Assembly (NCBI GenBank): GCA_964023205.1
Contig: OZ026833.1
Location: 40,765,137-40,829,136, forward strand
From: Lutraria lutraria
Lineage: Eukaryota > Mollusca > Bivalvia > Venerida > Mactridae
Reading direction: 5' to 3'
Length of the DNA: 64,000 nt
The notes under the pieces are model-generated. The model did no database searches, was not told the origin of the DNA, and worked only from the letters and a program-made list of their open reading frames with translations. The translations under genes and the position numbers were made by a program. This document shows positions 7,093-63,518 of this stretch, piece by piece; positions within the stretch are counted from its first letter, which is position 1, and the number at the start of each line of letters is the position of its first letter.

Positions 7093-10000
7093 ATGAAAAT
7101 TGTACTGGGATTTCTCCTCTGTCTTGCATATGGTAAGAAAACAATTTAAGATGTATTGGATGTTTTTATTTAATCATTATTTGTCTGCTTGTTAATGTAA
7201 TGATGAATTGTGTAAAATTAGTCGGAGACATCTAGTACTATTCGGGATATCAACCGTTTCCAAAAACATGGGACATAATTATTAGAACATGTAATTATAT
7301 AATATGTTCTCCTTCCTGAATGATATCATAATCACAGGAGTTCAACACAACGATCTATATTAGTCGGAAGACGGGTATTTTTCTTTTTTATGAGTAGGTA
7401 TTTAACTAGTAAAAACAAACAATTTGCTGTACGACAACATGTATCATATCTCATTCATATATTGTCTTAATAATTTGACAATTAGATGAACAATTATGAA
7501 ACCATTATTCAATCATGGATATTCCAAGCACTATAAAACTAGCCAACGAGATAAAAATGGAACTTAAGCGAAAAAGTAAACATAAAAGAAGCCAATTAAA
7601 GGGTTTATCGAAATCAGAATATTTGTTGTAAGATATATACTGTAAAGATGTATTTCGGTTTAGTTCTTGCATACGTCAACTAATTATGTTAACACATATT
7701 TGAAGATCAGAGTAATTGATATTATAGAATATAGACACAGCGTTTGAATTATAGATTTAGATAATTATCGTGAAAGTGATTGGAATATTTCGAAAAAAAT
7801 GAAAACGAAATTCGTTTTTAGACTGTTTATTTTGATAACAATATAAAAACTGAAATATATTTGAAGTCACAGGATGTTGGAGTAAAATCGTTTTGGGCCG
7901 AAATAATGCTGTAGACATTCCTGAAGAAAAAATCACCCAAATTGTAAAACTTCTCCAATCTGAGAAAAATGGCATGTCTCCAAAGAAGGCAGATGCTGTA
8001 GAACGTATAGTGGGCGGAAGGTAGGTGATCACTCAACATAATAAACTATTATTGTTGAATGCCTTAGACACCTTTAAAATGGACCACAGACATCATTTGC
8101 ACTATTGCGTTATTTAACACCAATGTTATTTCAATGAACTAAGCGTAATGTATTTTAGTCTATTGATTTTATTTATCAATTTAATTCATCCATACGTTTA
8201 TTATGTGAAAATCAATGGCAAATTATTAGACTTTAATGTTAACATATGTGAAATGATTGTGCAATATAGTATACCAGGTGCTTTGAATTGAACTTTTTAA
8301 CAGAACTTAATGTACTTTTCCTTCAAAGACCAGCTGCACTTGAAGATTATCCATGGATCGTTTCAATATACGGACACTATTTCTGCGGTGGCTCCATTGT
8401 TAATCCAAGAACCATATTAACTGCAGCCAGCTGCGTTTATGATACCAGGTAAATGTTTCTTGTATTTATCACTACAATCTCCCGTTTCCGCATCTTGTGC
8501 CTCGAGATATTATAAAACGCAGTGTCACTTAACGGGCACCATACTTTTAAAACTAGTAAATATAACCGAAAATGCTGAAACTGTATGCACAATCTGTTGG
8601 CCAGCGTTTGCTTGTATATTTACGCTCGTATACTGAAATGCACGATTATTCAGATCGTAATCTCCAGGTATTCTGTATTTTGTAAAATAAATTTGGTTAT
8701 ACGGAAAATCGTTGTTATTGACGGTACTGTGTTGGTTTTTTACTGTGTGTGTGCACATCTTTAATTGGAAAGCCCTTCAAAGAATCCAGTGCGTTCTGTC
8801 CTTTGTTCGGACAGAGACACTTTTTTTGTTGATGCCATTACCTTTTTCCAATCATGATGCAGACAAAAATGATGATAAAAGGCTATGTAATTAATCTGTT
8901 TTAGGTTAATACTAGGTGTGAAGATGAACGATTTTGTGCTTTCGATACACAAACCATTTAGACACGTAGTATTTCTAAAATGTTAAAGTCATCTATAATT
9001 AATAAATACTAATGGTTGAATGTTTTTGTATTCGTAATTTAGTCCAGAACTTATCAGAATAAGAGCTGGGGATATCGACACGCGTAAGAGGGATTACTAT
9101 GAACAGAGACGTTCCGTGGCCAACATTATAGTGGTAAGTTTTTTATAGCAATATGCTATCTACATTAATACACCTACATCTGAATTGGGCTGTATATACG
9201 ATTTCATCTATCAATATAAGGTAAATATGCTATCAAAAATTCAAAAGACAAATTATTTAGATTTTATTTTGCAATTCAGCCGAAAGGTCATAAGTTCTAC
9301 TCGCTAACTAGAGCTCCATAGAACGAATGCTGTCATGCTGAGCTATGCAGATGAGTTGTGGCAATTAGTAAATTATGTTAAATACAAAATTGTTTCCTCA
9401 ACATTTTGTATTTATTCTTTATAAATAAAGCAGCATAACTAAACTTCTGACTCCATGTACACCATGTACGCCATGTATGATCTTTGCAAAATGGCGTATG
9501 TTATTAGAATTAAGTTACAATTATTTTAACACCTTAGGGGTAAAATAAACTGATTCATTTTCATATAATAAAACAGTGATTAAAGTTCATGGTATAATTG
9601 AGAGACAATTTACTTAGCACCCCTGGCAAATACTTTATTTAGATATTGACAGCGAAAAGTTTATGTAATTTAAGTTTTGTGAAAGTCAACGAAAGGTAAA
9701 GACAGTGCTGAAGGCATTGCTGTTGAACTCATCGAAGATTTAATCTAAAATAGTCGGCCCCTTTCGTATATCGTGTAAATTAATGGCAATGTAAACATTG
9801 GCTTAGTTTTATGCGGTTTCATATGGTGTTAAAAATATTTTGTGTATATTTTCAGCACCCGAAATTCAACGTCAAATACTACAACTCTGATATTGCTATT
9901 CTGAAGTTGGAAACACCTTTAGAATTTAACAAATTCATACAACCGATCGACTTGGCAAGTGGGTAGCTTTTGTCCGAACAATATCATGATCCATTTTGAA

Positions 10001-61400: not shown

Positions 61401-63518
61401 AGATTATTCAAGTTTAAGTTCAGAAAAGCAAATGTCAAAGAAAGGTCGAGGAGTATGGTTTGTGCTGCGGGTAACGCTGTTGAACACGCCAATGACATGT
61501 TTTTCAAGAAAGATTTAATTAATAGCTTCCGGTCCCTTACGAATGTGGTGACAATGCAATGCCAATACTAAGCATTGATCTAGATTTCTACAGGTTGCTT
61601 TGATATCAAGATATGTCTTTTGATTTTTTCAGCACCCGAAATTCAACGAACACTACAATTTTGATATAGCTATTCTGAAGTTGGAAACACCTTTGGTATA
61701 TAACAAGTTCATACAACCGATCGACATGGCAAGTGGGTAGCTTTTGTCAGAACAATATCATGATCAGTTTTGAAGTAATAGATGTGTGCACTTTGTCTGC
61801 AACAGTTACATATTGATTATTGTTTTATTAATGACTATCAAGACGTTCACACAATGTCGATGCGCCGTTTGTAGGAAAGAAAGTTCCCTTTGTAACGTAT
61901 CTCATTTATACAATATTTGAACTATGACCTTTATGAATATTTAGTTTTGGAAGAGTTATTCGGTCTGTTAACTAACTATGAAATTTAGTTTTTGTTTTCC
62001 TGGTGGTAAGTGTGATGTTGGGCCCATCTAACTAGCTAAATCCCCTAGTAGCTTTGCTGCAGGACATTATAGGTGGGGAAATAGTATTTTGTCCTCCATT
62101 TTTTGTATAAGTTAAGGGTAGGGGATTTGAGGGATGGTGTATTTTGGGGAAGGCGGGGTGTTTTTTATGATTCTATTTTAATGAATGTTTTTAATGTTCA
62201 GTGTGTGTTGTTTACAAGCATCTTTATTTATTAGTGGTTAAGTTTACTGACTGAATTCAAATTTCTGAGTCTATGGCTAAGCTAAAGATAATGGCTGGGC
62301 CTACGTTCCGTTCGTGTTAAGCAGATATCGTGTAAGTTATCACTCATAGCTAACTTGTTAATCCTGTTTACCATATAACTTAAAGAAAACATTTCTCATA
62401 CCTTCTCCTTTTCATCTTCCAGCCGTTAAGCACTATATTGTTTAGAACAGGCGTTTAACCATATTCTTTGGATTGTGACTGACTTGAAAGTCGGCTAGAA
62501 ATTGTTTCTTTTAAAACATTATGTTATGCCAGTGGCGGTCTTTGATTAACACTTTCTTCCTGATATATTTATTTTCTTACTATGCAATATTTATCAAAAA
62601 CATGTACATATATGAATGTTTCTTATCTTACTTGCATAATCATGCCTACATCATTTATTTAAGCCCCCTGGAAAGACGCGGTTGTGACAGAGTTGAATAA
62701 CTGTGTAATGGTTGGTTACGGTACAATAATCAGTGAGTATTTCTAATTTATTTCAAACTAACACATCTAGGTATACTAGGAGAATATACATAAATCAATG
62801 TGTACGTATCTTTTGTTAAACGATTTATATTTTGTTATTATTAAGATATCATCAGAAAATTCCGTGTCCAAAGCAATGCATCTCTGAACCTCATAAGAAT
62901 ACAGTGAGGACAAGTATATAAGTATAGACCTCTTTGTAATTCTTCCATGCGCATATAATATTGTAATATATGTAATTGCATTAGCATTATGTATTATCAG
63001 AGTTTGTTCAAGTTATGTAACGTGTATAATAATGGATACGAATGGGTATACATACGTGTGTATTCAGTATTTCCGAGTACAAACTATAACTACTGATCTG
63101 CAGAATTGATATAATATCCTTTTTATTGGCATATTCTGTGTGCATATGTGTTAAGTATTGAATGTGTATTGTGTATAATTGTGTGCAGTTTTTTATTGTG
63201 TATGACATTGTATCGTGTATGATTATGTATTTTGTAAAATTACGTGTTGTGTATACACGCGTTTTAACGTAATTGTGTTTTGTGTATCATTTTGTATTGT
63301 GCATTATTGTGTATAATGATGCATTTGTGTGGATTGTGTATAAATGTGTATATCATTGTATTCTAGATCCTGGATTTAAACAACCATGGTTCTTACATGA
63401 AGCAGAATCAAAAATAGCAAGTCGAGGCTTTTGTAAAAACATCACGGAAGATTTCTTTGATGAAATTTTCACCCAGAACCAGTTATGTTCAGTAGATTTT
63501 GAGGCTGGTGGATGCGAC
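58431..63518 (+). CDS. Gene D: serine protease homologue, exons 1-7 (last exon outside window)
   Basis: The exons are 58431-58470, 59461-59608, 59933-60052, 60790-60880, 61633-61732, 62664-62732 and 63367-63518, all in frame with GT-AG introns. It is a close duplicate of C: exons and introns align almost throughout. The signal peptide, propeptide Cys, Arg|Ile-Val-Gly-Gly activation site, T-A-A-S-C (His57 to Ser) and F-D-I-A-I-L (Asp102) are as in C. Differences in the propeptide include His for Leu and Tyr for Ser. The window ends about 15 bases before the expected exon 8 acceptor, so the Ser195 position cannot be read. Confidence 0.88.

Follow-up and report, generated by a model that had tools for sequence, protein, structure and literature searches.

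A cluster of trypsin-fold genes in the bivalve Lutraria lutraria encodes putative pseudoproteases probably maintained by purifying selection after loss of catalysis

The window analyzed here, a stretch of 64,000 nucleotides from the bivalve Lutraria lutraria (assembly GCA_964023205.1, contig OZ026833.1, positions 40,765,137 to 40,829,136), contains seven copies of one gene encoding an S1A trypsin-like protein that has lost residues of the catalytic triad. The copies were given the letters A to G of our own (D and G apparently correspond to E and D, respectively, in the original prediction made from the same sequence). Exons were assembled manually on the basis of open frames, splice sites, and similarity between copies. 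Two copies, A and C, are complete genes of eight exons, G is intact up to the end of the window, and B, D, E, and F are truncated or broken. Comparison of the window with itself sorted the copies into three pairs, A/B, C/G, and D/E, in addition to the relic F. The G+C content of the window is 32-37% per 4-kb step, a value that gives no argument against the heterodont bivalve source indicated as most likely by the relatives.

Copy A extends from 7093 to 15698 on the forward strand (exons at 7093-7132, 7873-8020, 8329-8448, 9043-9133, 9856-9958, 11776-11844, 14953-15104, and 15546-15698) and encodes 291 residues, including Ser57, Asp102, and Ser195. Copy C extends from 29896 to 35784 on the same strand (exons at 29896-29935, 31046-31193, 31540-31659, 32395-32485, 33264-33363, 34294-34362, 34997-35148, and 35632-35784) and encodes 290 residues, including Ser57, Asp102, and Gly195. 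Both frames are open over eight exons, as the original prediction had it. Copy G, at 58431-63518 on the forward strand, is open over seven exons (58431-58470, 59461-59608, 59933-60052, 60790-60880, 61633-61732, 62664-62732, and 63367-63518) and carries Ser57 and Asp102; its exon 8 would fall past the end of the window. Intron borders are of the GT/AG type. The Pfam family Trypsin (PF00089) was matched over model positions 1-220 of 220 with E values of 2.1e-50 for A and 1.9e-47 for C, and only trypsin-type families were matched in Pfam by the two proteins. No family was found in an NCBIfam scan of C.

Copy B (19788-24872, forward strand) is limited to exons 4 to 8, with Asp102 and Gly195; exons 5 to 8 are located at 21104-21206, 22983-23051, 24127-24278, and 24720-24872. 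Exon 4 is present twice (19788-19878 and 20278-20368), being carried by a 490-base unit repeated head to tail at 19695-20678. Copy D (38584-42881, reverse strand) comprises exons 2 to 8 (42837-42881, 42152-42277, 41708-41798, 41164-41263, 40733-40801, 39558-39659, and 38584-38736) and carries Val57, Asp102, and Gly195. Compared with E, exon 7 of D is missing 53 bp, a deletion that puts the sequence out of frame and eliminates Cys168, and a scan upstream of D for a signal exon found none, while the same scan recovered exon 1 of A and C. Copy D is a probable pseudogene. Copy E (51939-55683, reverse strand), a duplicate of D, retains exons 5 to 8 (55584-55683, 55156-55224, 53392-53546, and 51939-52091) in an open frame with Asp102 and Gly195; exons 1 to 4 are missing. 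Copy F (47730-47822, forward strand) is a broken relic of exon 8 that is 63.6% identical to residues 243-275 of A and contains a stop codon.

Loss of the catalytic His57 from every copy with exon 3, replacement of Ser195 by Gly outside A, and retention of Asp102 had all been proposed in the original prediction, and all were borne out. His57 is missing in four of the four copies with exon 3, in which it is replaced by Ser (codon AGC; A, C, and G) or Val (codon GTT; D), and none of these copies has the complete His57-Asp102-Ser195 triad. Codon 195 is GGT (Gly) in B, C, D, and E and AGT (Ser) in A only. The frame-broken relic F appears, on our own reading, to have Gly at this position, and G stops short of exon 8. 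Asp102 is kept in the six copies showing that position (A, B, C, D, E, and G). To judge from these residues, the active site is dead in these copies. The further claim that all copies keep the four structural disulfides holds for A and C, which both have eight domain cysteines at the positions of the four core disulfides, the bonds themselves being predicted from these positions. It does not hold elsewhere, since D lost Cys168 and B and E lack exons 1 to 3 and 1 to 4, respectively.

Homologues were collected by a search with a single sequence (best 120 of 133 matches) and by a profile search with the aligned copies (best 120 of 2141), which together provided 235 proteins. The list of the former search was headed by an insect proclotting enzyme-like protein, which was 37% identical across 89% of the query, and a few short matches displayed 38-40% identity. 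The profile search also listed proteins from Ruditapes (P0126) and Mya (P0137 and P0143) and a fragment from Mactra antiquata (P0135). Among the 235 homologues, 228 motifs of the GDxGxP type were caught by the search pattern, to which the count is limited; 218 of these contained Ser and four contained Gly. The Mactra fragment, annotated as a 'CLIP domain-containing serine protease', provides one of these four. It carries GDGGSP, as do D and E, and is thus devoid of Ser195, and it is 43.5% identical to E, but it differs in being a fragment of 172 residues without the His57 region. The closest pairwise match among the listed homologues was the Mercenaria mercenaria 'chymotrypsin-1-like' protein (P0122) for A, B, C, and D and the Mactra fragment for E. 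P0122 and the Ruditapes philippinarum 'chymotrypsinogen A-like isoform X2' (P0126) are 37-40% identical to A and C and retain both TAAHC and GDSGGP; the Mercenaria and Ruditapes proteins should therefore be catalytic. The original prediction had regarded relatives with an intact triad at the same loci as a sign of mere decay. Such relatives do exist, although as a sister group and not as demonstrated counterparts at the same loci.

Three trees were built. Tree 1 contained 38 rows (six from the window, six from bivalves and Lineus, and 26 hand-picked homologues). Active-site positions were masked in tree 2, which contained 34 rows, P0002, P0010, P0045, and P0184 being left out. Tree 3 contained 42 rows, domains cut from 11 proteins (including the ant protein and other multi-domain proteins) having been added and 11 of the 26 homologues kept. 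The row of A held about 40 surplus residues of the pro-region in trees 1 and 2 and had the correct length in tree 3. A clade of nine rows, consisting of the six window rows and the Mactra, Mercenaria, and Ruditapes proteins, was recovered with support values of 97/92, 95/93, and 99/93 in trees 1, 2, and 3, respectively. Within this clade, the window rows and Mactra grouped together (96/82 in tree 1 and 94/88 in tree 3), with the Mercenaria and Ruditapes proteins as their sister group. The arthropod context named in the original prediction is thus unsupported, and the trees point firmly to kinship with bivalve proteins. Loss of catalysis is possibly shared with Mactra.

Features of a zymogen are retained in the cluster. 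The activation site, consisting of Arg15 followed by Ile16-Val-Gly-Gly (8004-8018, forward strand, in A), is present in A, C, G, and D, as well as in P0122 and P0126, and Asp194 is retained in A, B, C, D, and E. Positions 189, 216, and 226, numbered by hand from alignments, are Gly, Gly, and Asn in each of the eight members of the nine-row clade in which these positions are covered (A, B, C, D, E, Mactra, Mercenaria, and Ruditapes); both Mya proteins lack the Asn of this pocket. The pro-regions of A and C are 44 residues long and contain one cysteine apiece. In exon 2 of A, C, and G (7873-8020, 31046-31193, and 59461-59608), a single pro-region cysteine is located close to the start. Since the domain of A and C has eight cysteines, the one in the pro-region is left unpaired, and it may link the protein to a partner.

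The ratio of nonsynonymous to synonymous substitution rates (dN/dS) was estimated by the NG86 method with a bootstrap 95% range, YN00 and maximum likelihood being used as cross-checks. For A and C, dN/dS was 0.375 (0.25-0.58; Fisher p 1.8e-6) at a dS of 0.31, and the cross-checks gave 0.37 (YN00) and 0.41 (maximum likelihood). A value near 1, named in the original prediction as an indication of decay, was thus not seen for this pair. The ratio was 0.39 (0.25-0.60) for A and G and 0.49 (0.28-0.84) for B and C. In a neutral simulation of 121 changes, which ignored indels and used a single kappa, both lineages remained free of stop codons in 0.66% of 5000 runs. Loss of His57 predates the A-C split, since Ser57 is specified in both copies by the identical codon AGC. 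Ser57 was thus already present in both copies while the low A-C ratio accumulated, indicating that the protein was selected after catalysis had been lost, as the original prediction had suggested from the kept frames. We infer, with good though incomplete confidence, that the lineage consists of probably secreted, zymogen-type pseudoproteases in which His57, and most simply also Ser195, was lost before A, C, and G split, A and C having evolved under purifying selection since then.

Several observations weigh against this interpretation. Four of the seven copies are broken or truncated. The dN/dS range spans 1 for C and G (0.42; 0.18-1.25) and for D and E (0.38; 0.08-2.46), the latter estimate being based on 56 codons only. 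A and B differ by six nonsynonymous and no synonymous changes over 188 codons, so that B gives no sign of constraint. Ratios between D or E and A or C are low (0.18-0.32), yet dS is near saturation (1.1-2.1), which implies an old split. In the profile search, an ant two-domain protein ranks first by E value and Mercenaria P0122 second, and the closest listed pairwise match of G is a metagenome protein (P0160), followed by P0122. Masking of the active-site positions lowers support for the grouping of the window rows with Mactra to 60/21, and the loss in Mactra may therefore be independent; under the same masking, placement of Mactra with Mercenaria and Ruditapes was not rejected by the approximately unbiased test (p-AU 0.423). 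The six window rows alone received 72/57 in tree 1 and 93/93 in tree 2 and did not form a clade in the best tree 3, where such a clade was not rejected (p-AU 0.41). A group of D, E, and Mactra received 74/43 in tree 3 and was outside the best tree 1 (not rejected, p-AU 0.345).

The truncated and frameshifted copies, the A-B changes, and the wide C-G range could all be accounted for if the cluster were a set of decaying leftovers of a former protease, A, C, and G looking intact only because decay is recent. This explanation is unlikely. Decay does not readily account for the low A-C ratio at a dS of 0.31 in two copies that both already had Ser57, nor for 290 codons free of stops and the eight cysteines that both A and C have kept in the domain.

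The layout of the cluster also raises the question of whether the two members of each pair (A/B, C/G, and D/E) are allelic haplotypes that the assembly has joined into a single contig, in which case the copy number would be inflated and the A/B difference at position 195 would be a polymorphism. Blocks of A (8970-11943 and 13967-19723) are found again in B (19718-28883) directly after A with 95-99% identity, block identity is 84-98% for C/G and 86-93% for D/E, and bivalves are very heterozygous. However, the order along the window is C, D, E, G, unlike the order C, D, C', D' expected from one tandem stitch, and B lacks exons 1 to 3. We consider such an artefact improbable; even if it were real, A, C, and D would remain distinct loci.

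The original prediction further described the losses as parallel. Parallel loss was set aside as less likely, the codon shared at position 195 favoring one ancestral event. The most parsimonious history is a single ancestral change to Gly195 with subsequent replacement by Ser in A, because B, C, D, and E share the codon GGT; most simply, Gly195 would be ancestral to the cluster. Ser195 of A differs from Gly by one base (GGT to AGT), and comparison with C polarizes the A/B difference in the same direction. It looks like a later single-base change, but a polymorphism or an error is equally possible. The difference between Ser and Val at position 57 in the two subfamilies may reflect one shared loss or two.

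Copies A and B might also be parts of a single gene that has two alternative 3' halves and in which exons 1 to 3 of A would be joined either to exons 4 to 8 of A (Ser195) or to exons 4 to 8 of B (Gly195). The open exons of B, with their GT/AG borders and yet no exons 1 to 3 of their own, would be in keeping with such a gene. The stop codon in exon 8 of A, which is followed by AATAAA-like motifs, argues against it, and we consider it very unlikely. Even less credible is a regained working or weak hydrolase activity of A, for AGT at position 195, though found only in A and judged, by comparison with B and C, to be the derived state, occurs there without His57 and may be a one-base polymorphism or sequencing error.

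For the pseudoprotease lineage proposed above, secretion, activation cleavage, and binding by the pocket are deduced from sequence features. A putative signal peptide and the pro-region of about 44 residues would keep the domain as a zymogen. The retained cleavage site and Asp194 suggest activation by another, trypsin-like protease, which would cleave after Arg15. The freed Ile16 end would then pair with Asp194, and the substrate pocket would form. Preservation of the pocket in the face of loss of the cutting residues fits binding without cutting: the pocket formed by Gly189, Gly216, and Asn226 might hold a peptide or protein partner, and the resulting protein might act as a binder, cofactor, decoy, or recognition protein.

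Mobile elements and repeats accompany the copies. A reverse transcriptase frame with three internal stops is present on the reverse strand at 17008-18552 and again at 26182-27706 (Pfam RVT_1, E value of 4.6e-16 for the longest piece). It was copied into B together with A and carries a frameshift as well in the B copy, and its best relative among the best 120 of 131 matches is 65% identical; on our own reading, it belongs to a non-LTR element, i.e., one without long terminal repeats. A short element is present once in A (10217-10377) and once in B (21465-21627), on the reverse strand, and its frames resemble those of tRNA-derived short interspersed elements. An ARAGORN tRNA scan and an Rfam scan of the window gave no match. 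A 21-base repeat of the ATGGCGGCCATTTTCAAAAAT type is found at 36845-36905 and 50210-50270, at matching places in the D and E blocks. Upstream of G, the region 56117-57062 (forward strand) contains two open frames, one of 116 residues and one of 203, of which the latter gave a sub-threshold match to zf-RVT (E value of 0.094); the region is possibly a decayed retroelement.

Trypsin-fold proteins devoid of catalytic residues are known from several systems. In haptoglobin and HGF, extra CCP or kringle domains precede the dead protease domain; A and C differ in showing only trypsin-type families in Pfam and no such extra domains. The clip domain of homologues such as masquerade and PPAF-II is an N-terminal domain with six cysteines. 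None was found in A and C, which have the single cysteine in the pro-region and no Pfam match before residue 59, nor was a match found in the exon-2 frame of A. The arthropod serine protease homologues (masquerade, PPAF-II, and beetle homologues) combine, like the window copies, a trypsin fold with loss of catalytic residues. The definition of serine protease homologues given in two sources, an S1 domain from which at least one residue of the triad is missing (PMC1761132; PMC11172050), fits the window copies. In Tenebrio molitor, 125 of 269 S1A sequences are dead homologues, in which Gly is the commonest replacement at position 195 (26/125) and Gln occupies position 57 in 55/125 (PMC11172050). 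Position 57 is thus commonly Gln in the beetle, in contrast to Ser or Val in the window copies. Inactive homologues are described as parts of invertebrate protease cascades (PMC1761132), and a mud crab homologue is described as binding bacteria (PMC3665817).

The original prediction had found the TAASC motif at the active site unfamiliar. The motif is not new: TAASC is aligned in the PDB chains 1FY3, 1FY1, and 1A7S of heparin-binding protein, which we take to be azurocidin (CAP37). These chains were the top match, with a weak E value of 0.14, of a fragment of C cut around TAASC. Azurocidin was ranked 27th by one of two other fragment queries of the PDB and was outside the first 45 in the other; it was not among the best 60 of 555 PDB sequences for the whole of A, nor among the best 60 of 279 for an exon-8 fragment. 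Azurocidin carries Gly at position 195 and belongs to the neutrophil elastase/PR3 branch. Its Ser57 and Gly195 pair is matched by copy C, in which the pair would represent convergence because the kin of C are bivalve. The two proteins differ in other respects, since the window copies group with bivalve proteins in trees that contained neither azurocidin nor elastase, and the domain of C, with an isoelectric point of 7.1, is not strongly basic, in contrast to azurocidin. According to PMC4646688, azurocidin is inactive and antibacterial, and its branch is limited to placental mammals. A more elaborate scenario, of low probability, can also be offered: a bivalve-specific pseudoprotease lineage, dead before its paralogues split, would have kept its zymogen switch and pocket as a binder that does not cut, reached the Ser57/Gly195 pair of human azurocidin independently, and, in A, gone back to Ser195.

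Serine protease homologues have been documented so far in arthropods and some vertebrate proteins. No bivalve case was met in our searches of the open literature, nor was one named in the titles that the broader searches listed; this is not proof of absence. The window copies belong to this known kind, and what is new is the lineage, the constraint measured after the loss, and the difference of A at Ser195. With the Ser57/Gly195 pair in common with azurocidin, a convergent role in defense becomes a testable idea. Together, constraint after loss, sister enzymes that are apparently live and have the same pocket, and the presence of Ser195 in A make this cluster a tractable case of the conversion of a protease into a binding protein.

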